DNA of 22,595 nt from a virus (IMGVR_UViG_3300025889_001034:1-22595); one strand, 5' to 3'. Positions 1-14,357 are shown, counted from the stretch's first letter. Made by a program: numbers and translations. The notes: generated by a model not told the origin, from the sequence alone.

Positions 1-22
1 CGTTGTACAACGGTGGTATTAT
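1..22 (+). promoter_or_regulatory. Possible promoter and palindromic operator at the window edge
   Basis: A perfect 12-bp palindrome, CGTTGTACAACG, occupies positions 1-12. It is followed by TATTAT at 17-22 preceded by TG at 14-15, an extended -10-like arrangement. The first plus-strand gene starts at 67 with a good ribosome binding site, so a promoter here would fit, and the palindrome would lie where a repressor could block it. The -35 position is mostly outside the window, so this is a weak call. Confidence 0.25.
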
Positions 23-66
23 TCAACCATTGAACAGCAGTACACACCAAAAACAGGAGAAATCAA

Positions 67-285
67 ATGATCAAATTCGATAGCCTCACTACTCTGATCT
101 CAGCCTACATGAAGAAAATCAATACGGGCGATGTGCAAAAAGACTTCTCGTTTGAAGATGTCCGCACAGTAGTTTGCGAAACAATTCCTTCGGTCTCTTT
201 CGGGCATCTTTACGGAATTTTGACCACTACCCCGAACTGCAAAACAGTCACTATGGTAAGGGATTTTGGCTATGTCGAAAACTAA
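67..285 (+). CDS. Small protein of unknown function, first gene of the accessory operon
   Basis: This encodes 72 residues with no recognised domain. The ATG at 67 has a strong ribosome binding site, AGGAGA at 55-60, six bases upstream, which supports the start. The gene overlaps the next by 14 bp and is the first of three tightly packed genes that end just before the first attC site, so they may share one cassette whose left end lies outside the window. The protein is mixed alpha/beta in character with two cysteines and no signal peptide or membrane segment. Function is unknown. Confidence 0.6.
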   Translation: MIKFDSLTTLISAYMKKINTGDVQKDFSFEDVRTVVCETIPSVSFGHLYGILTTTPNCKTVTMVRDFGYVEN

Positions 286-466
286 GGAAATCAAAAAAAA
301 ATATGATTACACAAGCACCCAGCGCGGAAAGAGGCGCACTACTCAAGATAATTTATGGGCTTATGTAGTCAGTAAAGGCAAGTACGATACACTCCGAAAA
401 CTTATGACAGCCATCAATAAAGGTGAAATAGTGTTGGTGGCTGTTGAAAGGAAAAATAATGAGTAA
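272..466 (+). CDS. Small basic protein of unknown function
   Basis: This encodes 64 residues from ATG 272, chosen because AAGGGA at 258-263 lies eight bases upstream; the upstream in-frame TTG at 266 has no such spacing. The N-terminal half is very basic (KTKEIKKKYDY, then QRGKRRT), which suggests nucleic-acid contact, and the C-terminal half is predicted helix followed by a short strand. It overlaps the next gene by 8 bp and is probably translationally coupled to it. No family is recognised. Confidence 0.55.
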   Translation: MSKTKEIKKKYDYTSTQRGKRRTTQDNLWAYVVSKGKYDTLRKLMTAINKGEIVLVAVERKNNE

Positions 467-806
467 AAAAGTTGAAATAGAAGAAAACATTGATCTTGTC
501 AAAATTGAAATGCCAAGCGGTAACACTATGCTGATAAGTACAAAAGCACTTGGCGGAAAGCTAGAATTTCTGCAAGACTTTTATAACGAAGTTCTTGGTG
601 TAGTGGGGTGGTCTGACGATCTCGAAGAAACTGGAGTTTTACCTGTAACGCATTGTAAGGACACAATAAAGAATTTGCGCAAGGAAAATGAACGCTTCCG
701 AAAATCTCTTGAGTTGCAAAATGCCGCAAACGGAAAGTGTAAGAATTGCGGAACACTTCACGGAGAACCAATTATTCATTGTGATGTTTGTGGCGCGTTT
801 CAATAA
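459..806 (+). CDS. Small protein with C-terminal zinc ribbon
   Basis: This encodes 115 residues. ATG 459 is preceded by AAAGGA at 447-452. The N-terminal part is mixed strand and helix. Residues of roughly 70-90 form a charged helix rich in Lys, Glu and Arg that could be a coiled coil. The C-terminus carries CKNCG and CDVCG about 10 residues apart, a four-cysteine zinc ribbon. The stop codon lies seven bases before the R'' box of attC1, so this is the last gene of the first, left-truncated cassette. A regulatory or nucleic-acid-binding role is plausible from the zinc ribbon but not shown. Confidence 0.6.
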   Translation: MSKKVEIEENIDLVKIEMPSGNTMLISTKALGGKLEFLQDFYNEVLGVVGWSDDLEETGVLPVTHCKDTIKNLRKENERFRKSLELQNAANGKCKNCGTLHGEPIIHCDVCGAFQ

Positions 807-812
807 AACGCC

Positions 813-942
813 CGCTAACACAGCGCGCACCTGACAAGTGGGATGCGCCGCCATTTACAAGCATTATCTAATCTTTGAGTTTGTTCTGCCTTCGGGCTTT
901 TTCCTACGCCCGCCCACTTGCAGGTAGCGCAAACCGTTAGCC
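813..942 (+). repeat. attC recombination site 1 (putative)
   Basis: R'' is CGCTAAC at 813-819 and R' is GTTAGCC at 936-942. The inner arms GCGCGCACCTGACAAGTGGG and CCCACTTGCAGGTAGCGC pair with an unpaired A, as expected of an attC folded as single-stranded DNA. The central loop is noncoding here. The R' box is the start of cassette 2 and is complementary to the R'' box of attC2. Confidence 0.75.
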
Positions 943-968
943 CGCCCCGCGCATTTGAAAGGTGTTTT

Positions 969-1139
969 ATGGTTGAGTATCTCGCCCCCAAGAAAGTATG
1001 TCCTACATGGTATTACATCCTGTCTCACTTGGCTTTCGAGTGGAAGAATGGCAATGAAACAGGCTTGCATTCAGATAGGCAATCAAATCCCTGGGCTGTT
1101 TGGGTTGAGAGGAGCATTGATGAAAACTACGGAAAATAA
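969..1139 (+). CDS. Small aromatic-rich protein, first gene of cassette 2
   Basis: This encodes 56 residues, starting VEYLAPKKVCPTWYYIL after Met. ATG 969 is preceded by AAAGG at 958-962 and lies about 30 bases inside cassette 2, a usual distance for cassette genes. It is rich in Trp and Tyr, and no domain is recognised. It overlaps the next gene by 20 bp. Its start near the cassette boundary and its proper ribosome binding site are the main evidence that it is real. Confidence 0.5.
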   Translation: MVEYLAPKKVCPTWYYILSHLAFEWKNGNETGLHSDRQSNPWAVWVERSIDENYGK

Positions 1140-1299
1140 AGCACAAAAGAAACTCATTGAGATTGTTTTGTATATGGCTGGAATACTTATGTATCACGTC
1201 AATATCTTTGGTATTAATAACCTCAATGATCTCAATAAAAAAATTGGCGAACTTCTAGTTATCATGCAAGATGAAGAAAGGATTGAGAATGAAAATTAA
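1120..1299 (+). CDS. Small protein with one hydrophobic helix, second gene of cassette 2
   Basis: This encodes 59 residues. ATG 1120 has a strong ribosome binding site, AGAGGAG at 1108-1114, five bases upstream, embedded in the end of the previous gene. Residues from about 11 to 30 (LIEIVLYMAGILMYHVNIF) are hydrophobic and could be a membrane segment or a buried amphipathic helix. The rest is charged helix. It overlaps the next gene by 11 bp, giving a three-gene coupled unit inside one cassette. Function is unknown. Confidence 0.55.
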   Translation: MKTTENKAQKKLIEIVLYMAGILMYHVNIFGINNLNDLNKKIGELLVIMQDEERIENEN

Positions 1300-1705
1300 T
1301 TGTACATGCACTCACAGCGTTTACGACCATTCGGATGATTCTGGATGCGACGCAAAAGGATGTACTTGCAGTCTTGGTTTTAAGGAAGTTACAGAAGTAG
1401 TATTTAATGCTTTAGAAAAAGAAATTGACGAATTGAGAGATAAAAATCACGCTTTGCGAGTTAGAAACGATAATGAATATGATACTGCGCTTGAATGGGC
1501 GGCAAGCTGGATAATTGGAGCGCAACTGTCTGGTCATGGTGTAGAGGTTCAAAGATACGCCAATACTATGGCGATGTCAATTCGTGCAGCAAAGCGCGGG
1601 CTAACACAGCGTGCAGCGGACGGCTTGGAGTCGGAGCCAAAATGCTACTGCCATTCCGAAGGCGTCTCGCCTAGTTGTCCCGTTCACGGCAATCGCCGCC
1701 GCTAA
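1289..1705 (+). CDS. Cys/His-rich protein whose C-terminus is encoded by attC2
   Basis: This encodes 138 residues. ATG 1289 has AAAGGA at 1277-1282; an in-frame ATG at 1271 lacks a site. The first 25 residues form a cysteine/histidine cluster (CTCTHS, then GCDAKGCTC), probably zinc-binding. A charged helix (EKEIDELRDKNHALRVRN) follows, possibly a coiled coil. Residues after about 105 are encoded by attC2 itself, starting TQRAADG and containing another Cys/His cluster (CYCHSEGVSPSCPVHG), and the stop TAA lies in the attC L' box. The attC-derived tail is probably accidental but would be translated. Function is unknown. Confidence 0.6.
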   Translation: MKINCTCTHSVYDHSDDSGCDAKGCTCSLGFKEVTEVVFNALEKEIDELRDKNHALRVRNDNEYDTALEWAASWIIGAQLSGHGVEVQRYANTMAMSIRAAKRGLTQRAADGLESEPKCYCHSEGVSPSCPVHGNRRR

Positions 1706-1720
1706 CGCCAACCGTTCGGC
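1599..1720 (+). repeat. attC recombination site 2 (putative)
   Basis: R'' is GGCTAAC at 1599-1605 and R' is GTTCGGC at 1714-1720. The inner arms GCGTGCAGCGGACGG and CCGCCGCTAACGC pair with an unpaired A and a small unpaired spacer. The site is read through by the upstream gene, whose TAA stop lies eight bases before the R' box. Confidence 0.8.
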
Positions 1721-1753
1721 GGCTTCGTGGCTGTCCGAAGAAAGGTGAAAATT

Positions 1754-2083
1754 ATGTCACTCGAAGAATGGGCTGATCTGCATGGCGAAGATTACCCGAA
1801 GCGTAAGTTTTTCAGCGCGTTAGATTATGGGCGTGGTGATAGAACTTGCATGACAATATATTGTGATTACTGCGAACAGCCTTTTGAAATCAAGGAAGAT
1901 GAATTAGACGACTGGATGGTTATTGATCCAGTAAGTGGTGATAAGGCTGTGATGTGTGGCGAATGTGAAAGCCGCCGAACACAGCGTGCAGCGGACGGGG
2001 CTACATGCCCCCGCTGTCAAGGTATTTTGAATAGCGATGGTTATTGCTTAGCGTGTGGGTATCCATTCCCGCCCCGCCGCTAA
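1754..2083 (+). CDS. Double zinc-ribbon protein, cassette 3
   Basis: This encodes 109 residues and is the only gene of cassette 3. ATG 1754 has AAAGGTG at 1741-1747. The first zinc site is formed by CDYC and CGEC, about 30 residues apart in the middle of the protein. The second, CPRCQGILNSDGYCLACG, is entirely encoded by attC3 DNA after the shared peptide TQRAADG. The stop TAA is in the attC L' box. The acidic region between the first pair (EIKEDELDDW) resembles no family I can name. A DNA- or protein-binding accessory role is plausible but not shown. Confidence 0.62.
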   Translation: MSLEEWADLHGEDYPKRKFFSALDYGRGDRTCMTIYCDYCEQPFEIKEDELDDWMVIDPVSGDKAVMCGECESRRTQRAADGATCPRCQGILNSDGYCLACGYPFPPRR

Positions 2084-2098
2084 CGCAAACCGTTGGGC
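1974..2098 (+). repeat. attC recombination site 3 (putative)
   Basis: R'' is GCCGAAC at 1974-1980 and R' is GTTGGGC at 2092-2098. The arms GCGTGCAGCGGACGGGGC and GCCCCGCCGCTAACGC pair with one unpaired A. The R'' box, extended to 11 nt, is a perfect complement of the cassette's own start at 1714. This is the strongest pair in the array. Confidence 0.85.
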
Positions 2099-2208
2099 GT
2101 CCCCGTGCAAAATCGGGGTGTGTGCGACACGAAAGACACAGGTGTACAAGGTAGGCGTGAAAGTTATCGTCAGAGAATCGCGCTTCGTGCAAAGTCCCGC
2201 GACCCTGC

Positions 2209-2215
2209 GCCCAAC
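2209..2215 (+). repeat. Isolated R''-like box in the cassette 4 leader
   Basis: GCCCAAC at 2209-2215 lies between the cassette 4 start and its gene. With the preceding C, CGCCCAAC complements the first eight bases of the cassette (GTTGGGCG at 2092). No L''/L' stem follows it. It could be the remnant of an attC whose right part was deleted, or a chance match. The rest of the leader, 2099-2229, holds a small CCCCG/CGGGG hairpin and no convincing gene. Confidence 0.3.
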
Positions 2216-2229
2216 AATTTGGAGAAACC

Positions 2230-2595
2230 ATGAAAGATAAAAGGCTCGATGTTCAATGTGCTGGCTTCTTGCTTTTGGATGATAGCGATTTTTCATCCCT
2301 GCCACTTTTGCGGTATGGTTGCGAGAAGTGCAAAACACATGATGAGTACTGCGTTGATTGCACACTGAAACTTTACGAAGTTTTGAACTCTGAAAAATAT
2401 GCAGAGTTTTACGCAAAGCCTGAGCGAGAGCGGCATGATATTTTTGTCACGCTTGAAAATGAGTGGGTGGCACAACATCAAAACGCCCAACAAAGCGTGC
2501 ACCCGACCGCCTTCGGCGAAGAATCGCCCGCATCAAATTCCCTGCAAATGTCATTGTTTGCAGAAGTACCTTCCGCTACATACGGCGGCGGGTAA
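2230..2595 (+). CDS. Small protein with CxxC pair, cassette 4
   Basis: This encodes 121 residues. ATG 2230 has GGAG at 2221-2224 five bases upstream. CEKCKTHDEYCVDC at about residues 31-44 is a compact four-cysteine site likely to bind zinc. The following segment to about residue 85 is charged helix. The last 35 or so residues, beginning QQSVHPTAFG, come from attC4 and end at the TAA in its L' box. A very similar peptide ends the last gene of cassette 7, because both are translated attC rather than because the proteins are related. Function is unknown. Confidence 0.62.
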   Translation: MKDKRLDVQCAGFLLLDDSDFSSLPLLRYGCEKCKTHDEYCVDCTLKLYEVLNSEKYAEFYAKPERERHDIFVTLENEWVAQHQNAQQSVHPTAFGEESPASNSLQMSLFAEVPSATYGGG

Positions 2596-2610
2596 CGCAA
2601 GCCGTTGGAA
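2485..2610 (+). repeat. attC recombination site 4 (putative)
   Basis: R'' is GCCCAAC at 2485-2491 and R' is GTTGGAA at 2604-2610. The arms GCGTGCACCCGACCGCC and GGCGGCGGGTAACGC pair with one unpaired A. The R' box departs from GTTRRRY at its last base, but it is where the next cassette begins, and it doubles as part of that gene's ribosome binding site. Confidence 0.78.
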
Positions 2611-2620
2611 GGCTAAAACG

Positions 2621-3370
2621 ATGTGGACTTATTACGGCAGTAAAACAAACGTGGTCAATTTCTATCCATCACCGAAGCATGGCAAGATTATCGAGCCGTT
2701 TGCTGGCACTGCGCGGTATAGCCTGAAATACTTTGATCGTGATATTTTGCTTGTGGACAAATACGAAGTTGTTGTGAAAATCTGGCAATGGCTTCAAAAG
2801 TGTTCAGAAGGCGATATCCAAAAGTTACCGCATAAGGTTGAGCCTGGTCAGTCTCTTGATGATTTCATTTTCGATTGCGATGAAGCGAAATGGTTACTTG
2901 GTTTCCTTGTCGGTTTTGGAATGGAGCGACCCCGCAAAACAGCAAGCGTAAAAAGAATGACGGTCCGCCCCAACCATGTGAATTATTCCTTGAACAGAAT
3001 TGCTAAAAACCTTTTCAAAATTCGTCACTGGAAAATCATACATGGTAGTTATTCTGATATCGAAAATCAAGAAGCCACATGGTTCATAGATCCGCCCTAT
3101 CAGTTCGGTGGTCACGCTTATATCGAAAGCAATAAAAACATAGATTTTCCCGCTCTTGGTAAATGGTGCGCGGAAAGGAAAGGTCAGGTCATTGTCTGCG
3201 AAAATACACAAGCCGACTGGATGAATTTCTTACCTATCACAACTCATAAAGGCGTGCGCGGTATGCAAAAAGAAGCGGTGTGGTGTAACAGTCCGATATC
3301 TTATCAATTAGAACTGCTACGCCTGCCAACACCGCATGCACTGGACGGCGCAACTCGCGCCGAAAATTAG
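2621..3370 (+). CDS. DNA adenine methyltransferase, D12 class (Dam-like), cassette 5
   Basis: This encodes 249 residues. It matches N6-adenine methyltransferases of the D12 class: YYGSK at residues 4-8 corresponds to the N-terminal motif usually written YxGGK, IEPFAGTARYSL near 24-35 is the AdoMet-binding motif (usual FxGxG variant), and WFIDPPY at 154-160 is the catalytic DPPY. The length is near normal for the class. ATG 2621 uses GGAAGG at 2607-2612, which spans the attC4 R' box. The final residues (from about HALDGATRAEN) come from attC5. In phages such enzymes commonly protect DNA from restriction or alter gene regulation; no partner endonuclease is present, so it is an orphan here. Target sequence is not predictable by eye. 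Confidence 0.85.
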   Translation: MWTYYGSKTNVVNFYPSPKHGKIIEPFAGTARYSLKYFDRDILLVDKYEVVVKIWQWLQKCSEGDIQKLPHKVEPGQSLDDFIFDCDEAKWLLGFLVGFGMERPRKTASVKRMTVRPNHVNYSLNRIAKNLFKIRHWKIIHGSYSDIENQEATWFIDPPYQFGGHAYIESNKNIDFPALGKWCAERKGQVIVCENTQADWMNFLPITTHKGVRGMQKEAVWCNSPISYQLELLRLPTPHALDGATRAEN

Positions 3371-3430
3371 TAGGTTGCGCGTTCTTGGTTGCGTGTTCAA
3401 TCGCGCCGCCAGTAACGCAAACCGTTAGGC
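3324..3430 (+). repeat. attC recombination site 5 (putative)
   Basis: R'' is TGCCAAC at 3324-3330 and R' is GTTAGGC at 3424-3430. The arms GCATGCACTGGACGGCGC and GCGCCGCCAGTAACGC pair with one unpaired A. The R'' box complements its cassette start (GTTGGAA) only over the central bases, so this is the weakest of the seven, but the stem is good. Confidence 0.7.
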
Positions 3431-3460
3431 GTTTCCTTGCAAGCATGGAGGCTTGTAAAA

Positions 3461-3640
3461 ATGGAATATTTACAAACATGGTTACATAATTTTTCTGGTA
3501 TCCCTGCCAGATGGATGGCGCGTTATCTTGAAAAACGCGGATGGGTTGTGTTCTATCTTGACGAACACGCCCGCAGTTGTGGTAATAATGGCGATGGGTG
3601 TTGGTTGGCGTTGTATCAGTCAATCAAGCACAACGCCTAA
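3461..3640 (+). CDS. Small Trp/Tyr-rich protein, cassette 6
   Basis: This encodes 59 residues from ATG 3461 with GGAGG at 3447-3451, nine bases upstream. It is the only gene of the shortest cassette (294 bp) and its TAA stop is formed by the R'' box of attC6. The sequence contains PARWMARYLEKRGWVVFYLDE, split by a conserved-looking Gly, followed by an Asn/Gly turn region with two cysteines. No family is recognised. The fit between gene and cassette borders supports it being real. Confidence 0.55.
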   Translation: MEYLQTWLHNFSGIPARWMARYLEKRGWVVFYLDEHARSCGNNGDGCWLALYQSIKHNA

Positions 3641-3724
3641 CAAAGCGTGCACCCGACGCCGCGCAACGTCCGCCATTTTTGGACAGGTTACAAGGCGCGG
3701 CGCGGGTAACGCAAACCGTTGGGC
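3635..3724 (+). repeat. attC recombination site 6 (putative)
   Basis: R'' is GCCTAAC at 3635-3641 and R' is GTTGGGC at 3718-3724. The arms GCGTGCACCCGACGCCGCGC and GCGCGGCGCGGGTAACGC pair almost perfectly with one unpaired A. The loop is short, making this the most compact site (90 bp). The 10-nt complement to its cassette start at 3424 is perfect. Confidence 0.85.
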
Positions 3725-3748
3725 AGACTCGCCAATGGAAGAGGTAAT

Positions 3749-3919
3749 ATGAGCGTAGAAGAAGCAAGATACGAAGAATCTAAAAAAGAACTTGCGCGAA
3801 TATTAGATATATTATTTAGTGAATGGCGCGAAGGTGTTGATTACGAAGCGTTAAAAGCGGCGGCGGATTGGCACAAATTGAAAATCAAAGAATACGAATC
3901 TGCTAAAGAAAGTAGGTAA
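3749..3919 (+). CDS. Small charged helical protein, first gene of cassette 7
   Basis: This encodes 56 residues, nearly all predicted helix and rich in Glu and Lys. ATG 3749 follows GGAAGAGG at 3737-3744 closely. The gene starts about 30 bases inside the cassette and is separated by one base from the next gene, so the two form a pair. Given the possible ribbon-helix-helix partner, a small regulator or toxin-antitoxin-like pair is conceivable, but nothing in the sequence identifies a toxin. Confidence 0.55.
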   Translation: MSVEEARYEESKKELARILDILFSEWREGVDYEALKAAADWHKLKIKEYESAKESR

Positions 3920-3920
3920 T

Positions 3921-4145
3921 ATGGAACTAAAAGTTAATTTACCCCGCGAAGATTTGATGTCATTGGCTCGCCTTGCTACATCTCGCAACGAAGCCATGAG
4001 AGACACCGCATCTAAAATCATCCGCGAATATGTATCTGCCCAACAAAGCGTGCACCTGACCGCCTTTGGCGCAAGTATGCGGCGCGGTTTTGCTAAGTTT
4101 CTAATTAAATTAGCTTGGTTGATTGACCCAATCGGCGGCGGGTAA
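3921..4145 (+). CDS. Possible ribbon-helix-helix protein, second gene of cassette 7
   Basis: This encodes 74 residues. The first 40 have the pattern of a ribbon-helix-helix DNA-binding fold: a short strand MELKVNLP, a helix REDLMSLARLA, a turn, and a second helix ending KIIREYV. Arc/CopG-type proteins have this size and layout and act as dimeric repressors or antitoxins. The remaining residues, from QQSVHLTAFG onward, are encoded by attC7 and end at the TAA in its L' box. The ATG at 3921 has only a modest ribosome binding site (AGTAGGT), so coupling to the upstream gene is likely. Confidence 0.5.
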   Translation: MELKVNLPREDLMSLARLATSRNEAMRDTASKIIREYVSAQQSVHLTAFGASMRRGFAKFLIKLAWLIDPIGGG

Positions 4146-4161
4146 AGCATAACCGTTGGGC
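4038..4161 (+). repeat. attC recombination site 7 (putative), array end
   Basis: R'' is GCCCAAC at 4038-4044 and R' is GTTGGGC at 4155-4161. The arms GCGTGCACCTGACCGCC and GGCGGGTAAAGC pair with one unpaired A and some wobble. The bases after the R' box, GTTGGGCAGA, are identical to the first ten bases of cassette 7 itself. No further attC follows before the terminator. Confidence 0.78.
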
Positions 4162-4168
4162 AGAATTT

Positions 4169-4212
4169 ACATAAAAAAACAGTTCGGATATATCCGAACT
4201 GTTTTTTTATGT
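4169..4212. terminator. Bidirectional intrinsic terminator between convergent gene blocks
   Basis: This is a 44-nt perfect palindrome centred on GGATATATCC. The GC-containing core CAGTTCGGATA is flanked on one side by seven A and on the other by seven T, so RNA made in either direction ends in a stem followed by a U tract. It lies eight bases after the last attC R' box and four bases before the stop of the tail fibre gene, exactly where the two convergent blocks meet. Confidence 0.9.
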
Positions 4213-4216
4213 TTTT

Positions 4217-5230
4217 TTACGGTACAACTAAGTTATATTCATTGTTCGCCGTTATCGCGTCTGAATTTGCCAGTGTGATTGGATTCGTTGCCGTCATACC
4301 AGTTGCGTTATGTGTAAACAAAGAGCCTGACGTTGCGCCATTGGATAGGTTAAATGACCCCACGTATAATGTTCCAGCCGAGTTGTCAAAAAGCGAAATA
4401 AAACCTGGATTGTTATTACTGGTCGCTGCTGCTGCCGTGAATGGAATAGAAACAGTATACGTCCCCGTTCCAAATGTCGTTGTAGTTCCTGCTTGGATTC
4501 TTAGCTTTACAGAGCAGTTTCTACCGCGTATCATGTACGAACCTACAGACGTACCGTTACCAATGGCGGGCTGAGTACCAGACGATGCCCACGTAGGGGT
4601 GTATGTCATCCAATCCGTTTCATACACTGGATTATTTATTACATCGCCTGTTCCTGAAATTGACCATGTATAAGCAGCCGACCCCGACAAGGTAGCCGTA
4701 AATCTTCCAACATTCACGCAAACGTCAGAACTGGCGGGCGTTGTGGAATTGGGGAAATACTTTTCAGCCGTAGTGGTAGAAGACCCGTCTGCATACGTTC
4801 TAAAATACGGGTATGCCGCAATGCCTAAACTAACTGTGGACGAACCGGAAACCCAAGTTAGATAAACAAAATATTGCCTCGCTAACGTGGAGGTGATGCC
4901 ATTGCCGCCGAAATAGTTTGTCCCTGCATTTAGCGTAACAGACAGCGACGACGTAATGCGCCGAATTGATGTGCCAATCTTTATACAGACCGGATTGCTA
5001 GAACTAGCATTGGTCCCACCTGCCGCCTTTAACGCCACAGTCAAATTACTGGAAGACACAGACGCGGTGATATACCCATTTACAATCACGCCCTGCTCGC
5101 TACCAATAGCCGCGGCGTCTGTTATGTACGAAGCACCAGACGCTGGGGTTCCCGTTGAGTTATCAGCGCGATAAATAGCATCCTTTCCAATAGGGACACC
5201 TGGTGTAATAGCTGAAAGTTTTGAAGACAT
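4217..5230 (-). CDS. Tail fibre / receptor-binding-like protein
   Basis: This encodes 337 residues, the last gene of the late operon. It is rich in Ser, Thr, Ala and Gly with many short predicted strands. The C-terminal third contains TYTPTWASSGTQPAIGNGT and TTFGTGTYTVSIPF, a module I associate with phage tail fibre and baseplate proteins that fold as beta-rich trimers. Position after the tail hub gene and before the terminator fits a fibre. ATG 5230 has AAAGGAGC upstream. A receptor-binding role is inferred; no enzymatic motif is seen. Confidence 0.7.
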   Translation of the reverse strand: MSSKLSAITPGVPIGKDAIYRADNSTGTPASGASYITDAAAIGSEQGVIVNGYITASVSSSNLTVALKAAGGTNASSSNPVCIKIGTSIRRITSSLSVTLNAGTNYFGGNGITSTLARQYFVYLTWVSGSSTVSLGIAAYPYFRTYADGSSTTTAEKYFPNSTTPASSDVCVNVGRFTATLSGSAAYTWSISGTGDVINNPVYETDWMTYTPTWASSGTQPAIGNGTSVGSYMIRGRNCSVKLRIQAGTTTTFGTGTYTVSIPFTAAAATSNNNPGFISLFDNSAGTLYVGSFNLSNGATSGSLFTHNATGMTATNPITLANSDAITANNEYNLVVP

Positions 5231-7387
5231 TTATTGCTCCTTTAATATCCAATCAAACGACACAATCACCCCACCATTCCCCGGACTTGCTCGCCATGAA
5301 ATCGCTTGAATGTGGTTTAGCGCGTCGTACCCTGATAGAGAATCGTTTACCCGTACCAAGTCGCCTATATCGCAATACAGAAATAGGGCTTCGTTTGTGT
5401 TGTCTCTAGTAATCATTGAAACTTTGTTCAAAAATACACGTGGGTCTTTTTCATCTGACACAACCGCATCCGCAACGGTTTTTGCAAAATTGATGTCGTC
5501 TTGATATCTCATTTCAATATTCTGGTTGTAATATCCATAATCATTGATTGAGGTTGTGTCCTCTGCAACGTGCGTAATAGGCGAGAGTGATTGCAGTGGT
5601 TGCGCCCAAATATCCAATACCAAATACCCATCTGTGCCACTGGAAGATGTGACTGAAAAATCTATGCCTGTTCCGCCGATCCCAGCAGTAGCCGTCATGG
5701 ATGACGTTAATTCATTCCCGTCTCTTTCTGGCGCATCATACACGCGCCAGTTAATGCCGCTCATTACGTACTGTTTTGCGTTTGGTGTGAAACTTGTCGT
5801 CCAAGCGGCGTAGCCTTTTATCATTCTAAATTCGTCAATGTATCCGTTGTAATATGCGCCGTTATAGAGACCAATTGAGAAGTCGTCAGTTGTTGCCCTA
5901 ATAGTTGCCGAGGATGTCCAAGTGTCTTGAATGGCTCCATTTTGGAAGGTTACAAATGTATTACCGCTTCTGATAATGGCGTAGTGTGTCCATGTGTAAA
6001 GAGGGATTGTTCCTAGGCTTTTACCATTCGCAATATCCCAAGACACGCCGTTTGAGGTGATGTACACCCGCGAAACCGAACCATCGGAAACACCCAAAGC
6101 ATAGGGAGGAAATGCCCCAGTTGTAGAGCGTGATATGGCTGTCGTGTTAGCGGTAGTGGTTAATCTATATTCCCACCAGTCCACAGTCCAATTCTCGGCG
6201 CGGGGATTGAATTTCTCTTGTGACGGACTATAAATGTAATCAGACGAACCATTGAAACCTAAGCTAGCTGTTCCAAATACTTTGATAGACGTATAAAATC
6301 CAGCTCCTACTGGTGTAAATGATGTTGGGTATCCTGGTATGGTCTGGTCGGCTTCGTCCTGTATGTCTGTCACACCATCTGGCGGTGTATCAAAGTGCAA
6401 GAGGGTATATTGTTTTATTGACGGCGATATGGCTGCAATGGGTTGCTTAGATGATTGGTCTGTAAATGGGATACGAAAAGAAACCGTTTGACCGGCTGGA
6501 ATAAGTTGGTTTATTTCGTTGGTATACACCAGTACATCATTTTCCCCGACTTTATACGGGAAGATTTGAGCCGACACGCGATTAGCGATCCTTTCGCCGT
6601 ATTCAATATCTACTCCCGTAATTGTGCTGGCTTCTGCATTTACTTGTCCTAATGATACAAAATCTTCTAAAAGTAAATTTGTCCCATCTTCGAGAAGCAA
6701 ATCAGAACCATCTTCCAATAATAAATTTCCGCTGACGTTATCATAAACACCAACGGTCTTTTGTGTTGCGCTTCGTCCTCCGTATGGTTCAAATTTTAGT
6801 GTCCCGTCCTGCTTTACATAGGAGTATCCATACTCAGACATTGTTGATTTAGTTATTTCCGAATACGCCGTAGTTTTTACGGTGTTATCGTGGAAAGCGT
6901 ATGGGAATGTCTGAGTACCCGTTCCTAAACTTGTGCTTTCCGGCTGAATTGGGGAAAACCCTAAAATTGTTGTGATGATTTGGTCTGCTCTTTTATTCTG
7001 CTGTAGAGCTGGAATATCCAACGGCAGTTGTGATGCGTAGTGCATCCAATCCAAAGCGGTAACGGATGCCGTAGAATCAGAGACCCTATATCCTGGCTTA
7101 ATGCTTGTGACGCGACCAATAAATTTTGTTTTGCTTTCGTATTTTGTAAAAACCGCCTTGACTTTGACACCCTTGACCCAATCCGCATGAGCTGTACCAC
7201 TGCCAGGTGTGTATTTTCCGTCGTTATTATTTAGCACAAAAGACAACGACCCGTCGCGGGCGATTCTGTCTGTTGGCTTATTTCCGGTTATTCCAACGCT
7301 TCCGCTAACACCGGATGACGTTCTTACGTCTGAGGTAATGTCTACCCACGCCCCGCCGAGGTATGCGTAAATCTTCATGCTTATCAT
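5231..7387 (-). CDS. Tail hub / minor tail protein with inserted LamG-like domain
   Basis: This encodes 718 residues. The N-terminal 200 (WVDITSDVRTSSGVSGSVGI, then FIGRVTSIKPGY and VTALDWMHYAS) look like a phage tail hub or distal-tail-type beta domain. Residues 221-243 hold three LLLEDG-type repeats. Residues from about 328 to 540, starting TLLHFD and ending YIDEFRMIKGYAAWTTSFTP, form a concanavalin/LamG-like domain likely to bind carbohydrate. The C-terminal region resembles the N-terminal hub segment in style. ATG 7387 overlaps the tape measure stop by 4 bp and follows AGGTGA. The protein probably sits at the tail tip. Confidence 0.72.
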   Translation of the reverse strand: MISMKIYAYLGGAWVDITSDVRTSSGVSGSVGITGNKPTDRIARDGSLSFVLNNNDGKYTPGSGTAHADWVKGVKVKAVFTKYESKTKFIGRVTSIKPGYRVSDSTASVTALDWMHYASQLPLDIPALQQNKRADQIITTILGFSPIQPESTSLGTGTQTFPYAFHDNTVKTTAYSEITKSTMSEYGYSYVKQDGTLKFEPYGGRSATQKTVGVYDNVSGNLLLEDGSDLLLEDGTNLLLEDFVSLGQVNAEASTITGVDIEYGERIANRVSAQIFPYKVGENDVLVYTNEINQLIPAGQTVSFRIPFTDQSSKQPIAAISPSIKQYTLLHFDTPPDGVTDIQDEADQTIPGYPTSFTPVGAGFYTSIKVFGTASLGFNGSSDYIYSPSQEKFNPRAENWTVDWWEYRLTTTANTTAISRSTTGAFPPYALGVSDGSVSRVYITSNGVSWDIANGKSLGTIPLYTWTHYAIIRSGNTFVTFQNGAIQDTWTSSATIRATTDDFSIGLYNGAYYNGYIDEFRMIKGYAAWTTSFTPNAKQYVMSGINWRVYDAPERDGNELTSSMTATAGIGGTGIDFSVTSSSGTDGYLVLDIWAQPLQSLSPITHVAEDTTSINDYGYYNQNIEMRYQDDINFAKTVADAVVSDEKDPRVFLNKVSMITRDNTNEALFLYCDIGDLVRVNDSLSGYDALNHIQAISWRASPGNGGVIVSFDWILKEQ
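6659..6727 (-). repeat. Threefold LLLEDG coding repeat
   Basis: Three tandem copies of the peptide NLLLEDG / DLLLEDG / NLLLEDF are encoded within the tail hub gene. Such short Leu-Glu-Asp repeats are common linker-like units in phage tail-tip proteins. The copy number could vary by slippage. Confidence 0.7.
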
Positions 7388-9006
7388 TTTGTCACCTGCT
7401 GAGATGCCAAAACAAAGGCGCGGGTTAAGTCGTCGATATTAATTCGAGTGGCGTAAATCGCATCCACAATATCCTTGTTTTGATTTTGCCCCTTTGGAGT
7501 AATTGAGATTAATTCGCCACCCGACGCGGTATCGCTGTTGCCAATCGGGAAATTTTCATTACCCCACGACATCGGAATCATGTATGTGCCGCCTTTGGCA
7601 TTTTGTCTTTTTGGCGGGACGTACCCCTTTTCTCCAGCTAACTGAGTAGTTAATGCAGCCTGCCCCGCTTCGCTGTAGTTTGTGTGGACATTGATATTGA
7701 TGTCAATGTTTCTTTCCATTGCGTCTACTTGTCGCTGAACGGCAGCCATCGCGTCAACGGCTTCCTGTGAGTAGATGCCCCACTTAACGCCCTGCTTTAA
7801 CAGGAAGTCAGACTCTTTTTGGTCAAGACCATCCACCGCTAATTGCTCTTGGAGCATGGATAACATGCGGGTTTTTGTAGCCAAGTCAAACGCTTCGGCA
7901 TTAGCAGCCTGAGCGTCTTCATTTTCTTTTAGTTTGTCATTGACCGCCTGTACCGCGTCACTTTCAGCCCACCAACCCTGGTCTAAAAGTTTCTGTTTTT
8001 CGTCTAATAATTCTGAGTGTTGCGATTGCAAATCCGATTCTTTTTCTTTGTAAGAATCGATTTCTTTTGTGACTTGTCCAATGGTTGACAGGTAATCTTT
8101 ATTTGCTTTGGTTATTTCCTCAGCGGACAACGCCAAATCACTATTAGCGTCTGATAAATCTTCTACGGTGGTTATATTGTCGCGCTCGCCCTTATCAACT
8201 CGCTCGACTGATAATTCCATGTCTTTATTCGTATCAATGAAAATTTTTGCTATATCATCGAATCCGAAAGAAAAAGCCGCCCACGCTAAAGAGGTATCTT
8301 CAACTTTCTTATTAAAGCTATCAAGGGCGTTTGTTACATACGGAAGGGCTTCATTACCAGCGGCAACCTTGAACCCCAGCCAAGCATCAGATAGGTTATC
8401 AACCTGCTTTTCGTATTCACGCGCTTTCTGTAATTGCTGGTCGGTCAGAACTAGGTTTTTAGAAATCGCGTCGTTGGCTTTTAGAATCGCGTCGCCGCCC
8501 TGTTTCATGATTTCTGCAAAGTTACTACCCGATTTTCCAAAATTGTCATACAGAAATTTCGTTCGCTCTACATCAGAGCCAAGCGCAATATATTGGTCAG
8601 ACAGTCTAGCCAATGTCTGAATATTCAATTCCATATCTTTAGAGGCTAGTTTTTTCGTAGCTTGTCCGGCTTGGTCAGCGGATACTTTGTAATCGTCTAA
8701 TACCTGTAACAAGCGGCTAGATTCTTCTGCTGTCTGTCCGGTAACATCACGCATTTGGCGTACTTCATTTGCGTAATTTACCGTTACACCTACGGTTTCG
8801 TTGAAAACGTCGCGTAAAACTGATAGCCCTCTTTCGGCAAGTTGAGTTGCAGAATACAAATCGGTAAGCGAAAGAGACGCTTTCTGTGTCCCACTAGAAG
8901 CGTTTTCGGCTGCCTGTTTTGTGTCGCCTAGTTCGTCGTTGAATTTTGCGACTTTGGGAGTGCCATTGTCTTCAACATCAAACTCTACAATTATTTTTTC
9001 AGTCAT
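7384..9006 (-). CDS. Tail tape measure protein
   Basis: This encodes 540 residues, dominated by helix and coiled coil with Gln, Lys, Asp and Glu throughout. The N-terminal region contains DVTGQTAEESSRLLQVLDDY and a following helical segment typical of phage tape measure proteins. No peptidase or lytic domain is obvious. It is short for the family, suggesting a short tail. It directly follows the tail chaperone G-T genes with an 8-bp overlap, the conserved gene order in long-tailed phages. Tape measure proteins fill the tail tube and set its length. Confidence 0.85.
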   Translation of the reverse strand: MTEKIIVEFDVEDNGTPKVAKFNDELGDTKQAAENASSGTQKASLSLTDLYSATQLAERGLSVLRDVFNETVGVTVNYANEVRQMRDVTGQTAEESSRLLQVLDDYKVSADQAGQATKKLASKDMELNIQTLARLSDQYIALGSDVERTKFLYDNFGKSGSNFAEIMKQGGDAILKANDAISKNLVLTDQQLQKAREYEKQVDNLSDAWLGFKVAAGNEALPYVTNALDSFNKKVEDTSLAWAAFSFGFDDIAKIFIDTNKDMELSVERVDKGERDNITTVEDLSDANSDLALSAEEITKANKDYLSTIGQVTKEIDSYKEKESDLQSQHSELLDEKQKLLDQGWWAESDAVQAVNDKLKENEDAQAANAEAFDLATKTRMLSMLQEQLAVDGLDQKESDFLLKQGVKWGIYSQEAVDAMAAVQRQVDAMERNIDININVHTNYSEAGQAALTTQLAGEKGYVPPKRQNAKGGTYMIPMSWGNENFPIGNSDTASGGELISITPKGQNQNKDIVDAIYATRINIDDLTRAFVLASQQVTK

Positions 9007-9627
9007 CTATTAAGTCTCTGACTTTACGTAAAACTTCTGCAAGTGCTGGATTTTCTTTCGCCCATGTAGCCCAGTTCAAGGCTTTCTGTTCAGACCTGTA
9101 GGCGTGGATAATGTTTTCGATTGTCGCTACTGTAAGAATCTCTTTTGCATACAATACCCGCCCTACTACCGATTGCGCCCCGTATCGTTCCACATACTGC
9201 GAGAATATCAATTCGCGTGGCGGGTCGCCGCCTCTTTCCGCGTATTTATAGGCGGCGACCTTTAGTCGTTTGGGACTTCAACCGTCCCTCGATAAATGTC
9301 CAGTAACTTCCCCCATAAGACTGTTACCAGTAGGTGACTATCTTTGCGAGGCGAAGCAGGAAACTTATCAAACTGAAATGGCAGAGTATGACTTTCGGTA
9401 CACTTTGCAATCACAGGAATGTAAAACGCATCAAGGCGGGATGACCATTTCAGAGATGCAACCCCGTCAGTGCTTTTAGCGAGCGACTTTATAAAATCAC
9501 TGTCTCCCACTTCAACGCCAGCGTCTAACGCGTCCTCGATGGCTATGACTTGCTCAATGGTGAGGGGGTCGCATAACACGACCTCCCCCGCCCATTTTTC
9601 AACGGGTGATGTAACTATTACGCCCAT
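8999..9627 (-). CDS. Tail assembly chaperone GT, made by -1 frameshift
   Basis: The upstream frame (9627 to 9268) encodes 120 residues of protein G. At the heptamer C CCA AAC (9274-9268) a -1 shift opens a frame that runs without stop through 19 codons (beginning RLKVAAYKYAERGGD) and then the T region (FSQYVERYGAQSVVGRVLYA onward) to 8999, giving a 209-residue fusion. The T region has no convincing start of its own: only a TTG at 9211 with no clear ribosome binding site. In lambda and most siphoviruses G and GT bind the tape measure protein and tail tube subunits during assembly. Confidence 0.8.
9223..9274 (-). promoter_or_regulatory. -1 programmed ribosomal frameshift signal
   Basis: The signal has a slippery heptamer C CCA AAC at 9274-9268 in the zero frame of G, a 7-nt spacer that includes the G stop, then a perfect 11-bp stem (GGTCGCCGCCT at 9260-9250 pairing with AGGCGGCGACC at 9233-9223) closing a 16-nt loop. 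Sequence, frame and spacing all fit the known X XXY YYZ plus stem-loop rule. Confidence 0.9.
9262..9627 (-). CDS. Tail assembly chaperone G
   Basis: This encodes 121 residues, ending two codons after the slippery heptamer. It is a mixed alpha/beta protein; by position (between tail tube and tape measure) and by the frameshift signal at its end it corresponds to lambda gpG. Sequence alone is not recognisable, as is usual for this family. ATG 9627 follows AAAGGA seven bases upstream. It was probably adjacent to the tail tube gene before the endonuclease gene was inserted. Confidence 0.75.
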   Translation of the reverse strand: MGVIVTSPVEKWAGEVVLCDPLTIEQVIAIEDALDAGVEVGDSDFIKSLAKSTDGVASLKWSSRLDAFYIPVIAKCTESHTLPFQFDKFPASPRKDSHLLVTVLWGKLLDIYRGTVEVPND

Positions 9628-9656
9628 TGACTAATCCTTTCTGCCCGTTGGCATTT

Positions 9657-9791
9657 CATGGTAAAATCACATTGTTCAGGTAAATACAGTACGTCAGATT
9701 TTTTTGTTTCACACGCATCCCGTTTTGCCTGTATTGCCTGAACACAATACTGACTTGCAAAGCGGGATGCACCTTTAATGGAGTTACCATG
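9657..9791 (+). promoter_or_regulatory. Predicted pseudoknot leader of the HNH gene
   Basis: Three interlocking inverted repeats are seen. A (9671-9689) pairs with A' (9729-9748) as 7, 6 and 4 bp segments with small bulges. B (9715-9727, GCATCCCGTTTTG) pairs with B' (9758-9770, CAAAGCGGGATGC), 13 bp with one G-U pair on the plus-strand RNA. Because the order is A, B, A', B', both together form an H-type pseudoknot. An outer pair, CATGGTAA (9657-9664) with TTACCATG (9784-9791), covers the start codon of the endonuclease. The ribosome binding site GGAG (9780-9783) is next to it, so the structure may restrain translation. Confidence 0.55.
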
Positions 9792-10178
9792 AAAAACATA
9801 CCTGATAGTCAAATGAAAGCCAGATACAGAAAAGTTAGAGTAAATGGCATTCAAATATCACTTCATCGTCACGTTATGGAAGTGAAACTTGGTAGAAAAC
9901 TTCTTCCAAATGAAGCTGTCCACCACATCAACGGAAACAAATTAGATAACCGTCCTGAAAACTTAATGGTCATGGATATATCTGAGCATTCCAGAATGGA
10001 AAATCTCGGAAAAAAGTTATCCAAAGAACACAGGATGAAAGTTAGTATGTCTCTCATTGGCAATAAGTACCGTAAAGGAAAACCACATACTCAGGAAATG
10101 AAGGATTACTTGCGTCTGAAATCTACTGAAGCCAGAAAGAAAAAGTTCTGGTCAACTCGTAAAAAATCAGACGAGTAA
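9789..10178 (+). CDS. HNH homing endonuclease with NUMOD3 motif
   Basis: This encodes 129 residues. The HNH region is clear: LHRHVMEVKLGRKL, then NEAVHHINGNKLDNRPENL at 41-59, with His45-His46, Asn54 and Asn58 and a later His67. NUMOD3-type DNA-binding repeats follow at about 91-105 (GNKYRKGKPHTQEM). The rest is basic. This is the usual layout of free-standing phage homing endonucleases, which cut unoccupied alleles and spread by repair. It lies opposite to its neighbours, exactly between the tail tube and chaperone genes without disrupting either, and its stop is one base from the tail gene's stop. ATG 9789 has GGAG upstream. Confidence 0.88.
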   Translation: MKNIPDSQMKARYRKVRVNGIQISLHRHVMEVKLGRKLLPNEAVHHINGNKLDNRPENLMVMDISEHSRMENLGKKLSKEHRMKVSMSLIGNKYRKGKPHTQEMKDYLRLKSTEARKKKFWSTRKKSDE

Positions 10179-10179
10179 A

Positions 10180-10662
10180 TCAACTTTCCGCTGCTGTACC
10201 CCAGGCTGGGGCAGTTCCACCCATCACGCTAAACGTCGCGGAATATTTCATCGAAGACAAATCGACGGTATAGGATGTGCAAAGAAATCCAACGGTAGAA
10301 GTTGAAGTGATACCGAATTGCGGTTCTCCTGCTTCCCACGCGTGACGCATACCGATTTGAATATCCAACGAGAGCGGGGTGTTCCCGCCGGCAATACCGT
10401 TTAAAATCGTGTGGGAGCCTGACAAGGTTCCTGCTGTCTGCGCGGCGGTGTTGTCAAATGGTCCCGTGATGGTGATTTGACAAGATGGGTGCGCGGGTAA
10501 TACGTTCTTAATCGCGTCCTGAAACGCGGTGACTTCGCTTTCGTCGTAAGTCAAGCCCACGCCATTAATAGAATCAACGGGGATGCTTCGCAGAGTTCCC
10601 GCGCTGTCATCCACGCGGAAATCTGTCCATTTAGAAACTGTTCGTCCGGTTTGAGCTGTCAT
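10180..10662 (-). CDS. Tail tube-like protein, second copy
   Basis: This encodes 160 residues, the size of a basic tail tube subunit. It shares with the preceding gene an N-terminal RTVSKWTDFRVDD and a later AFQDAIKNVLPAHPSCQITITG followed by PFDNTA. Such segments are typical of tail tube proteins that form the hollow tail shaft. ATG 10662 follows AGGAGAG. Because the frameshifting chaperone gene follows it in transcription order, this copy sits in the classical position of the major tail protein. Which copy is the main subunit cannot be told from sequence. Confidence 0.68.
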   Translation of the reverse strand: MTAQTGRTVSKWTDFRVDDSAGTLRSIPVDSINGVGLTYDESEVTAFQDAIKNVLPAHPSCQITITGPFDNTAAQTAGTLSGSHTILNGIAGGNTPLSLDIQIGMRHAWEAGEPQFGITSTSTVGFLCTSYTVDLSSMKYSATFSVMGGTAPAWGTAAES

Positions 10663-10672
10663 TATTACTCTC

Positions 10673-11434
10673 CTATATTCTGACTAATGCCGCCGCAAAT
10701 GTGACGGTGGTTGCCGTGCCAAATACAATCTGCCAGCGGGTATATCTTCGGATTGTTGCGGTAGTGCTAAGAGCGACGATTCCGTGTTTTGGTGCGCTGG
10801 TAGCGTCTACGCTTCCAGACGTTGCGCCGCTGATGTCGCTAAAAGATGGGTTGGTGTTCGTAGATGCGTCCTGAGCTTTGACGGTGACAGTGCCATTACT
10901 CGAAAAGATTTGGTATGCAAAGAATCCACCCAACGAGGTAGACGCGCCTCTATCATCCAAGCCAGTAGACGAATTAACCGCCGTTTCCGCGCCTTTTGCG
11001 TGAAGTAAGAAACCCCACGGTTTGTTGTATAAAAGCGTAGTAGCTGAGTTTGACCAACCGCCGAAACCGATGGTGACATACGAATTAAGGTCGCCCTCTT
11101 GCATGTAGGATTGTTGTTCGTACTGCCCCAAGAAAACAGGGTCGCCCGCTGCTGGGGCTGTAAGAAATCCAATCGGAACCATGACATTACGAACCACGCC
11201 CGCGCCATTTGCGACAACATGTAACCCGCTTGAAGCGGTGTTGTCAAAGTATCCGTTCAGTGTCCCGATATTGATATTGGCTTGACCTTGGATTACATTT
11301 TTCACTTCATCGGTGAAACTGGCATCTTCCGCGGTATCAAACGAAACCTCTAGCGGTCCAACGGTACGCGAATAGCCCGATAGGTCGTATCCGTCCATAT
11401 AAAAGCGCGTGTGCTTTGTTACTGTTCTTGTCAT
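10673..11434 (-). CDS. Tail tube-like protein, first copy with C-terminal extension
   Basis: This encodes 253 residues. The first 75 match the neighbouring tail gene: RTVTKHTRFYMDGY, then ASFTDEVKNVIQGQANINIGTLNGYFDNTA (given here in two parts: up to KNV, and FDNTA). The remaining part is beta-rich with Ser, Thr, Gly and Asn and could be an extra surface domain, as seen in several phage tail tube proteins. ATG 11434 overlaps the upstream stop by 4 bp; the ribosome binding site AAGGA is a little far. It may be the main tail tube protein or a distinct structural subunit. Confidence 0.62.
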   Translation of the reverse strand: MTRTVTKHTRFYMDGYDLSGYSRTVGPLEVSFDTAEDASFTDEVKNVIQGQANINIGTLNGYFDNTASSGLHVVANGAGVVRNVMVPIGFLTAPAAGDPVFLGQYEQQSYMQEGDLNSYVTIGFGGWSNSATTLLYNKPWGFLLHAKGAETAVNSSTGLDDRGASTSLGGFFAYQIFSSNGTVTVKAQDASTNTNPSFSDISGATSGSVDATSAPKHGIVALSTTATIRRYTRWQIVFGTATTVTFAAALVRI

Positions 11435-11886
11435 TGTGCATGTTCCTTGACCCTGAAACTAAACTGAACGCCCCAATACTGCGTGTCTGTTGGGTCTGTG
11501 ACGGTACCCACGTTTGAGATACTGCCTAACTCCATATCCACCGCGCCTGTGATATTGTCGCTGGTCATTATCTTTTCAATAATGGCTTTTAGATTTGTCA
11601 TCAATCCAGCGTAGGGTGCATACGCATTAATGCCGCTTCCTACTTCGCAATGGAGGTACACATAATTCAGCACATATGAGAAATTCATTAATGCTGTACC
11701 ACCACCCCCAAAGGATTCGCGGGTCGACGCAATTTCTGAAATGAAATTATTAGGCGACGGCATCAAGAGCGGGCATAGCCCGTTTGCGCTGTCAGGGATT
11801 TCGTCAATGTCTTTGATAGTCACCCCTGAGATACTTAATCCAGCAATACTACTTGCAACAGTTGGAAAACTCACAGTCACGGTCAT
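11431..11886 (-). CDS. Probable tail terminator / tail completion protein
   Basis: This encodes 151 residues. By order, between the head-tail connector and the tail tube genes, it corresponds to the tail terminator or tail completion slot of siphoviruses. The sequence has an N-terminal hydrophobic strand region, a helix (MTNLKAIIEKIMTSD) and C-terminal strands ending WGVQFSFRVKEHAQ, compatible with that fold but not diagnostic. It overlaps both neighbours by 4 bp (ATGA), showing tight coupling. Assignment rests mainly on position. Confidence 0.5.
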   Translation of the reverse strand: MTVTVSFPTVASSIAGLSISGVTIKDIDEIPDSANGLCPLLMPSPNNFISEIASTRESFGGGGTALMNFSYVLNYVYLHCEVGSGINAYAPYAGLMTNLKAIIEKIMTSDNITGAVDMELGSISNVGTVTDPTDTQYWGVQFSFRVKEHAQ

Positions 11887-12728
11887 GAGTACCGCCGATA
11901 CGTTTTGATAAAATCAGCCATTACAGTGGGGATGTCCTTTGGAGAAAGAACAACCCCCGCGCCTGTAACTGTGGCTGTGTTTGTGCCTGACGTTCCGTAC
12001 CTCCGCTTATAAGCCTGCAATGCAGTTTCCAGTATGGCTGTTTTTAGGTCTTGCATAAACTGCCATATAGTAACGCCCGTCCCATTTGTATGGGTCGCAG
12101 CGGTAGAGCCATTAATTTCCCTTGTTGTCGTCAAGGTATTCGAGTTCTTTGCCGATACATACGCGAGTTCGTCATCGAATCGGATAATGTTTCCAACGGT
12201 GTAATCCTGCCCGTCTACCACATCGACGGCTGTCTCTGATACGTCAACATCTTCGTTTAGTCCGGAATCATCTACCCAAGCATCAGAATACTTATTGTGA
12301 AATCCCCATATTCCAGTGATGGCAATCACATCGTGAAAGTCACTGGCGGTATTAGAAGCCCAGTAATAAGTAGAGCTATCTTTTAACCTGATATACAAAT
12401 AAGGTGTAACGTTTCGCGGGCGTAGTGAATATTCTGTAGATGGGATAGTTACGCCGTCGCCGTTGACAACGCTAATGACTTCGAGTAAATCCGCATCCAA
12501 TACTAGCGAGCGCACATCAAGACTAGAACCGTCCGGTACATCGTAATAACGTGTTTCTACGCGAGGGTAGAACCATCTGCCAGTTTGTGTGTCAACATAA
12601 CGACTAACTGATTTAAGAATGGATTCAATTACCGCGTCATCTGTGGTGTCAGTCGTCGAAGTTTGACCGCGGGCGGTAACGAAATCCTTATACTCTGCTA
12701 GAGTGGCATAACTGTTAATCGTTGTCAT
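11883..12728 (-). CDS. Head-tail connector (gp6-like adaptor) protein, extended
   Basis: This encodes 281 residues. The N-terminal portion (YATLAEYKDFVTARG, then DDAVIESILKSVSRYVDTQTGRWF split by Ser) resembles the helical start of head-tail adaptor proteins of the HK97 gp6 / SPP1 gp15 type, which sit below the portal and often have the same SRYVDTxTGRxF pattern. It is much longer than the usual 100-120 residues, with an inserted beta-rich middle, and ends in a helix (LKTAILETALQAYKRRYG). It overlaps both neighbours by 4 bp. Confidence 0.7.
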   Translation of the reverse strand: MTTINSYATLAEYKDFVTARGQTSTTDTTDDAVIESILKSVSRYVDTQTGRWFYPRVETRYYDVPDGSSLDVRSLVLDADLLEVISVVNGDGVTIPSTEYSLRPRNVTPYLYIRLKDSSTYYWASNTASDFHDVIAITGIWGFHNKYSDAWVDDSGLNEDVDVSETAVDVVDGQDYTVGNIIRFDDELAYVSAKNSNTLTTTREINGSTAATHTNGTGVTIWQFMQDLKTAILETALQAYKRRYGTSGTNTATVTGAGVVLSPKDIPTVMADFIKTYRRYS

Positions 12729-13411
12729 TTAATCCACTTTTGATAATCATCTCTCGGCAAAATGTTTTCTGGAACGTAGGTATCTGCCGATATATTGAGG
12801 ATTCGAGCGGGTAAAGCATCCTTGAAAAACTTATAGCCCTCTTCCTCCCATGCGAAATCCTTTTCAGGTTCGCCGTGGTCAGTTCCCCAAAAAAGCTGAT
12901 TTCTGGTTTCGGGCTTATGCTGGACACCTATCATTAGCATGGTTTCAAATCCCATGTGCCACGCGATCTGGAAAACAGCTTCCATAATTCTGCGATACGT
13001 GATTCCGTCTTTTGTAAGGGCTGTTGAGTCTTTCGGTGTATGCCCGCCTACGAAAAAGTTATAGCCTGTGCGGTGTTGAAAGCGGTAAAAGTTCTCGCCG
13101 TCCAAATCATCCCAATCGGGTGTGGGGATGAACTTTGGGACATCGCTATAAACCTTTGCTAACGCCGCGCCATCTTCTAGCTTTAGTCTTTCGTCTACGC
13201 CGACGTAGTATGTCGGCTTCCAGTCCCATTCGGTTTGTTTATAAATCGTGTTTACTCCGAAGGTTGGATAATTAAACAAAGTGGGCGGCGTTAACTTTAG
13301 GTTTGGTCCTAACCCCACAATCACGCAGGTTTTCCCTTTGTGTAAATTGTAGAAGTCGGCTAGTCCAAATTTTGAAATAGTGGGCGACTGATACGGAGCC
13401 GCGTTACTCAT
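12725..13411 (-). CDS. DUF115/Maf-like Rossmann-type protein of unknown role
   Basis: This encodes 228 residues from ATG 13411, chosen over the upstream ATG because it begins at the end of the previous gene (8-bp overlap); no strong ribosome binding site is seen. GKTCVIVGLGPNLKL near 26-40 looks like a Rossmann-type nucleotide loop, followed by FGVNTIYK, YYVGVDE and MGFETMLMIGV. This order resembles DUF115/Maf and related sialyltransferase-like proteins, which handle nucleotide sugars. A glycan-related role, for example modifying virion proteins, is an inference. It is oddly placed between capsid-associated genes and the connector gene. Confidence 0.55.
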   Translation of the reverse strand: MSNAAPYQSPTISKFGLADFYNLHKGKTCVIVGLGPNLKLTPPTLFNYPTFGVNTIYKQTEWDWKPTYYVGVDERLKLEDGAALAKVYSDVPKFIPTPDWDDLDGENFYRFQHRTGYNFFVGGHTPKDSTALTKDGITYRRIMEAVFQIAWHMGFETMLMIGVQHKPETRNQLFWGTDHGEPEKDFAWEEEGYKFFKDALPARILNISADTYVPENILPRDDYQKWIK

Positions 13412-13929: not shown

Positions 13930-13933
13930 GGCT

Positions 13934-14317: not shown

Positions 14318-14329
14318 GTCATTTCTCCA

Positions 14330-14357
14330 ATGGAGGGTGAGTTTCCCCACCCTCCAT
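14330..14357 (-). other. Strong hairpin between capsid gene and the next gene
   Basis: A perfect 10-bp inverted repeat (ATGGAGGGTG with CACCCTCCAT) closes an 8-nt loop. It starts nine bases after the capsid stop. There is no U tract after it, so it is more likely an mRNA-stabilising or processing element, or a weak attenuator, than an intrinsic terminator. It could lower expression of downstream genes relative to capsid. Confidence 0.55.

Follow-up and report, generated by a model that had tools for sequence, protein, structure and literature searches.

The IMG/VR virus record IMGVR_UViG_3300025889_001034, a linear fragment of 22,595 bases whose ends are not closed and which was analysed over its whole length (hereafter the window), very probably derives from a tailed phage, likely infecting Anaerolineae, that carries an integrase-less integron cassette array on which the integron integrase (IntI) of the host would act in trans. 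The repeat elements are genuine attC-class sites with cassette boundaries at G|TT, they lie in a phage context, and the same attC class occurs beside IntI in Anaerolineae. Cassettes are common to unrelated phages, in both cases with the cut site as the edge, since close relatives have had whole arrays replaced there, and attI-like sites head the arrays of related phages without IntI. Because the breakpoints are exact, attI-like sites are present and an integrase is missing, we infer that the phage sites are recombined in trans by host IntI. The features of the window are the following.

1-936, + strand: cassette 1, partial or of unclear extent; ORFs 67-285, 272-466 and 459-806, then attC1
809-943, + strand: attC1 (R'' AAC 817, R' G|TT 936); 84.5 bits with covariance model R1, of which it is a member
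937-1714, + strand: cassette 2; ORFs 969-1139 and 1289-1705; with attC2
1595-1721, + strand: attC2 (R'' AAC 1603, R' G|TT 1714)
1715-2092, + strand: cassette 3; ORF 1754-2083 with weak zinc-ribbon similarity; with attC3
1970-2099, + strand: attC3 (R'' AAC 1978, R' G|TT 2092)
2093-2604, + strand: cassette 4; conserved leader and ORF 2230-2595; with attC4
2481-2611, + strand: attC4 (R'' AAC 2489, R' G|TT 2604)
2605-3424, + strand: cassette 5; D12-class N6-adenine DNA methyltransferase at 2621-3370, DPPY motif; with attC5
3320-3431, + strand: attC5 (R'' AAC 3328, R' G|TT 3424)
3425-3718, + strand: cassette 6; ORF 3461-3640; with attC6
3631-3725, + strand: attC6 (R'' AAC 3639, R' G|TT 3718)
3719-4155, + strand: cassette 7; ORFs 3749-3919 and 3921-4145; with attC7
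4034-4162, + strand: attC7 (R'' AAC 4042, R' G|TT 4155)
4169-4212: bidirectional terminator separating array and tail gene, formed by a perfect 22-bp inverted repeat that has runs of T on either strand
4217-7387, - strand: tail genes of 337 aa and 718 aa (PHROG phrog_13144 and phrog_1887), convergent to the array
7384-22467, - strand: phage late operon (tail, head-tail adaptor, major head protein, portal, large terminase)
19141-20724, - strand: portal, within the late operon
20727-22097, - strand: large terminase, within the late operon
within 7384-22467, - strand: ORF of 132 aa in the small-terminase position of the late operon

The sequence-only reading had described seven R''/R' elements in one orientation with genes between them, and the alignment, the covariation and the covariance model R1, which was built from these seven sites only and used for all attC scans, bear this out: window 809-4162 holds seven attC sites in a single orientation (+) and six complete cassettes. 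Across the seven-site alignment, 91.8% of named pair cells are formed and two-sided changes occur at 10 of the 21 pairs, and the covariation score is 0.408; shuffling gives 0.135 (0/500), and sliding the register gives no more than 0.156. The R'' and R' boxes (AAC...G|TT) bracket an inverted repeat that is imperfect and leaves a base unpaired, the hallmark of attC sites. The single conserved unpaired A of the first reading proved invariant; it follows the inner L'' arm and is A26 in the first element. Bottom-strand folding gives a clear closing stem for elements 1, 4, 6 and 7, and the top strand folds about equally well; for single-strand folding, the R' of elements 2, 3 and 5 derives beyond the GTT from the next cassette. 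Complementarity between cassette starts and their own far-end R'' had been claimed for five of six cassettes; the relation holds and the count was slightly conservative, since 6-7 of 7 nt beyond the GTT match in all six (cassette 5 with one mismatch; 40/42 in total), and among 720 permutations the true start/end pairing alone reaches 40/42. The same relation extends to 100 cassettes in 21 viral records, where starts agree with their own ends at 6.07 of 7 positions against 3.64 when shuffled (maximum 4.11 in 2000 shuffles). To the right of the last attC, the flank at 4155-4164 (GTTGGGCAGA) has the same 10 nt as the start of cassette 7; it may be what is left of one more, truncated cassette, or the right-hand half of the site of the original insertion.

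From 22,467 down to 4,217, the minus strand encodes tailed-phage late proteins according to PHROG matches, and the presence of terminase, portal, major head protein and tail genes on one contig identifies a Caudoviricetes genome. The stop of the tail gene lies at 4217 and the last R' ends at about 4161, leaving 7-8 bp between the array and the inverted repeat, in agreement with the eight bases originally read from the sequence; this repeat appears able to terminate the array and the tail operon alike. A similar juxtaposition would arise if a host integron or the boundary of a prophage had been classed as viral by mistake, or if the contig were chimeric. IMG/VR does hold candidates for such mis-sorting: three records (G046, G059 and G077) encode a complete IntI, give no phrog_2 match to a terminase and could come from a host or a prophage. 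The window is moreover a linear fragment, and the 4.16 kb junction of this exact phage is covered by no second assembly, since IMGVR_UViG_3300006802_001269 (G001), 99.6% identical to the window over 15.5 kb, ends at window 6,941. We nevertheless consider such an artefact highly improbable, as the array abuts a terminator common with the tail gene, an independently assembled relative, G008, is arranged likewise, and seven other array-bearing records are closed circles with a large terminase (TerL). G008 is a near-complete genome of 42.9 kb with two arrays, its TerL being 74% and its tail protein 37% identical to those of the window, and one of its arrays begins about 17 bp past the stop of the last tail gene, convergent to it as in the window. 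ORF maps place the arrays of G052, G065 and G047 convergent with, and adjoining, the end of the late operon; other phages have arrays elsewhere, one of them lying between the portal and later genes in G071. Elsewhere in the window, an ORF antisense within the late operon (9789-10178, + strand) resembles by eye a free-standing HNH homing endonuclease. A tRNA search of the window found none, and Rfam returned nothing at gathering thresholds over the whole window; two weak sub-threshold matches within 780-4250 were judged to be chance.

The attC class of the window is widespread in viral contigs and in one bacterial group. R1 finds about 150 further sites in about 40 IMG/VR contigs, and the covariation score on 121 viral sites, in an alignment fitted to the model, is 0.458 compared with 0.133. 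An exact attC half-site pattern occurs in 38 IMG/VR stretches, and all 37 records behind them contain R1 sites, up to 13 each; a large terminase is present in 15 of the 37. Seven of these terminase-bearing array records (G044, G048, G060, G062, G065, G071 and G072) are closed by end overlaps of 99-127 bp. Among 43 records selected as relatives of the TerL, tail or methyltransferase genes, many of them short fragments, only two have an R1 site, so the trait is patchy. In bacteria, the exact half-site pattern retrieved 21 genomes, mostly Anaerolineae, in 12 of which an integron integrase scores above the curated cut-off; R1 sites directly adjoin bona fide integron integrases in Anaerolineae genomes and occur in 61 of 150 genomes drawn from this class. 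Given this association, and given that R1 finds no site in 41 of the 43 relative records or in Tetrasphaera phage TJE1, we assign the window sites to an Anaerolineae integron class. The same half-site also appears in genomes labelled Chlorobiaceae, Paraburkholderia, Pelotomaculum, Chlorobaculum and Nitrosomonas (L152, L162, L177, L181 and L182), through either contamination or wider spread. The best cellular match of the terminase, at about 50%, is in Anaerolinea thermolimosa; the attC class and this one match make Anaerolineae (Chloroflexota) the most likely hosts. Phage genes, an Anaerolineae attC class, closed phage genomes without IntI and breakpoints at G|TT together uphold the initial proposal that a phage carries cassettes captured by integron recombination.

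The array has seven attC sites and the record, itself a fragment, gives no TIGR02249 match to an intI gene; it is therefore a CALIN, defined by two or more attC sites with no intI close by, and not a complete integron. The search for an integrase and an attI in the rest of the contig, suggested at the outset, was thus negative for the former; for the latter, the expected start of cassette 1 (GTTAGCGGGCG) is absent from window 1-812, and the left end of the array lies off the contig. As the window covers only part of a genome, the phage clade could have its own divergent integron integrase beyond this half-length contig. In G067 (IMGVR_UViG_3300048592_000613), which carries portal, head and tape-measure genes, a 457-aa integron-integrase-like recombinase (L339 12897-14270) adjoins an attC array; it scores 203 bits, below the cut-off of 265, and is possibly a phage-encoded integron integrase. 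The gene of cassette 3 is found in G067 at 86% DNA identity, beside this IntI-like gene, so more than one strategy may exist. An integrase of its own is nonetheless quite unlikely for the window phage, since neither G008, its closest near-complete relative, nor any of the seven closed phage genomes gives an integron integrase match even at E 0.001.

A stronger result than the window array itself comes from outside the window: most other phage arrays open with an attI-like docking site that matches host attI. We located array left ends by picking the first cassette start solely by its complementarity to its own R'', and the sequences immediately before it resemble one another from phage to phage (...AAACATA|GTT, ...AAATCATA|GTT, ...ACACTA|GTT), an ending shared with Anaerolineae attI sites beside IntI (AANCATA|GTT). 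With a matrix from 11 attI sites, ten beside IntI in Anaerolineae genomes and one in an IntI-bearing IMG/VR record, 20 of 22 phage array left ends fall in the top 0.5% of 26,078 GTT sites; the other two are without the attI motif and resemble undetected attC ends. A reciprocal scan of IMG/VR with an attI-type pattern that holds no attC information returned ten sites, nine of which are followed by attC in the same orientation. One match to the attI-type pattern (G491 11884, + strand) lies in a 44-kb viral contig that has a terminase and no attC, and is either a chance match or an empty docking site. The two arrays of G008 open with nearly identical 45-nt attI-like sequences (273, - strand, and 14297, + strand), and an exact search of IMG/VR with this attI found only these two. 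We do not claim a general Pc promoter before the phage attI-like sites, because the average excess over random is small (mean 8.35 vs 7.44), with a good consensus only in G052 and G044. The attI of the window itself is not seen because the contig probably begins inside cassette 1; since its left end is off the contig and attI-like heads are present in most related phage arrays, an attI is predicted for this phage.

Comparison of phages gives evidence for recombination, with breakpoints at the cut sites. Cassette 4 recurs at 88% DNA identity in G057 and at 89% in G044; the homology begins exactly at the R' cut site in both and ends at the next cut site in G057 and inside the attC in G044, and the three phages have nothing else in common over 150 bp at the DNA level. 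Single cassettes are also common to G062 and G065, and to G071 and G049. The search for the cassettes in other phages, proposed from the sequence, thus succeeded; that in hosts did not, as the cassette 4 and methyltransferase proteins have no match in 396 Anaerolineae genomes, an empty answer that counts as a weak negative. G071 and G078 are 88-96% identical in the phage genes around the array and have different arrays: they agree up to ...CCGTATAAAACATAGTT, diverge from the next base, exactly at G|TT, and agree again just after the last attC. A search with the G071 portal found only G071 and G078, and the last tail gene of the window has no relative in IMG/VR, so that further allele pairs are lacking. 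These observations bear on the view favoured for phage CALINs in PMC9892861, in which the array is a passive CALIN: a single event of homologous or illegitimate recombination would have brought it in from a host chromosome, and it would no longer recombine. The absence of IntI from the window and the closed relatives is consistent with such a one-time event, as is the repeated cassette 7 start after attC7, as if part of a further cassette had come along. A passive origin, however, accounts poorly for arrays replaced at G|TT between phages otherwise 88-96% identical, for the presence of one cassette, bounded by the cut site, in three phages of unrelated background, and for attI-like heads conserved in many phages, and we regard it as unlikely.

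The gene content of the arrays points to a possible benefit. Cassette 5 encodes a methyltransferase matching Pfam PF02086 (5.3e-06, above the cut-off), whose nearest relatives, at 52-66%, are in other viral contigs (L121-L126); an R1 scan of three of these records (L121-L123) found no attC. Given the viral relatives and the three records without an R1 site, it looks like a phage gene turned cassette, and an ordinary phage gene may have taken this route. The 61 cassette proteins of array-bearing phages include at least seven DNA methyltransferases, one Mom-like protein and one resembling PAPS reductases, so counter-restriction is the likeliest selected benefit, though function is unassigned for most. 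Cassette 4 has a leader (window 2093-2229) of which about 110 nt look nearly identical in three phages, its ORF being about 85-90% identical; the leader is possibly a regulatory RNA or a promoter, and its folding is not significant (z -1.54).

We favour loading of the phage arrays by host IntI and propose that, during infection, this enzyme would use in trans both the attI of the phage and attC bottom strands in folded form; cassettes would in this way be gained, lost and exchanged at the head of the array. The array would occupy a dispensable gap downstream of a convergent late operon, its main benefit would be rapidly exchangeable DNA-modification (anti-restriction) genes, and cassettes would move mainly between phages co-infecting the same hosts. 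More generally, and with only moderate confidence, we suggest that a broad set of Anaerolineae tailed phages keep integrase-less integrons, each with its own attI-like site and arrays loaded and reshuffled by host IntI, drawing on a partly phage-specific pool, with anti-restriction genes among others, that circulates between unrelated phages. If so, phages would be regular users of the integron system and not occasional passengers: the virus would keep a landing site and borrow a bacterial recombinase to swap counter-defence genes, and cassettes would gain a simple route from cell to cell. Combining a host IntI with attI and attC sites from the phages would then allow a direct test of what loads the cassettes.

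The remark that integrons in phage genomes are little described needs correcting, because phage integrons and CALINs have been on record since 2023: Qi et al. 2023 (PMC9892861) report CALINs in 21 phages, for example Tetrasphaera phage TJE1, show for other phages that phage attC sites are usable by IntI1, and attribute capture to off-target homologous or illegitimate recombination. As far as our searches of the open-access literature show, new here are the attI-like sites in integrase-less phages, close relatives whose arrays have been replaced at the exact cut site, a cassette common to unrelated phages, the recurrent place after the late operon and the Anaerolineae association. The window array resembles the phage CALINs of that report in having attC-flanked cassettes without IntI, in one orientation and with DNA methyltransferase cassettes; it differs from them in attC class, R1 finding none in TJE1, and the available text mentions neither an attI in phages without an integrase nor arrays that change among close relatives nor cassettes common to several phages. 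With the sedentary chromosomal integrons of Anaerolineae, the phage arrays share the attC class, the G|TT boundaries and an attI ending in AANCATA|GTT; unlike these, they are without IntI, are embedded in phage genes, in many cases behind the late operon, and include cassette 4 and a methyltransferase not found in the 396 Anaerolineae genomes. Like mobile class 1 integrons, they place a cassette array behind an attI on a mobile element, the attI being seen in related phages, but they have no IntI of their own and no recognised resistance genes, and their carrier is a phage instead of a plasmid or transposon.
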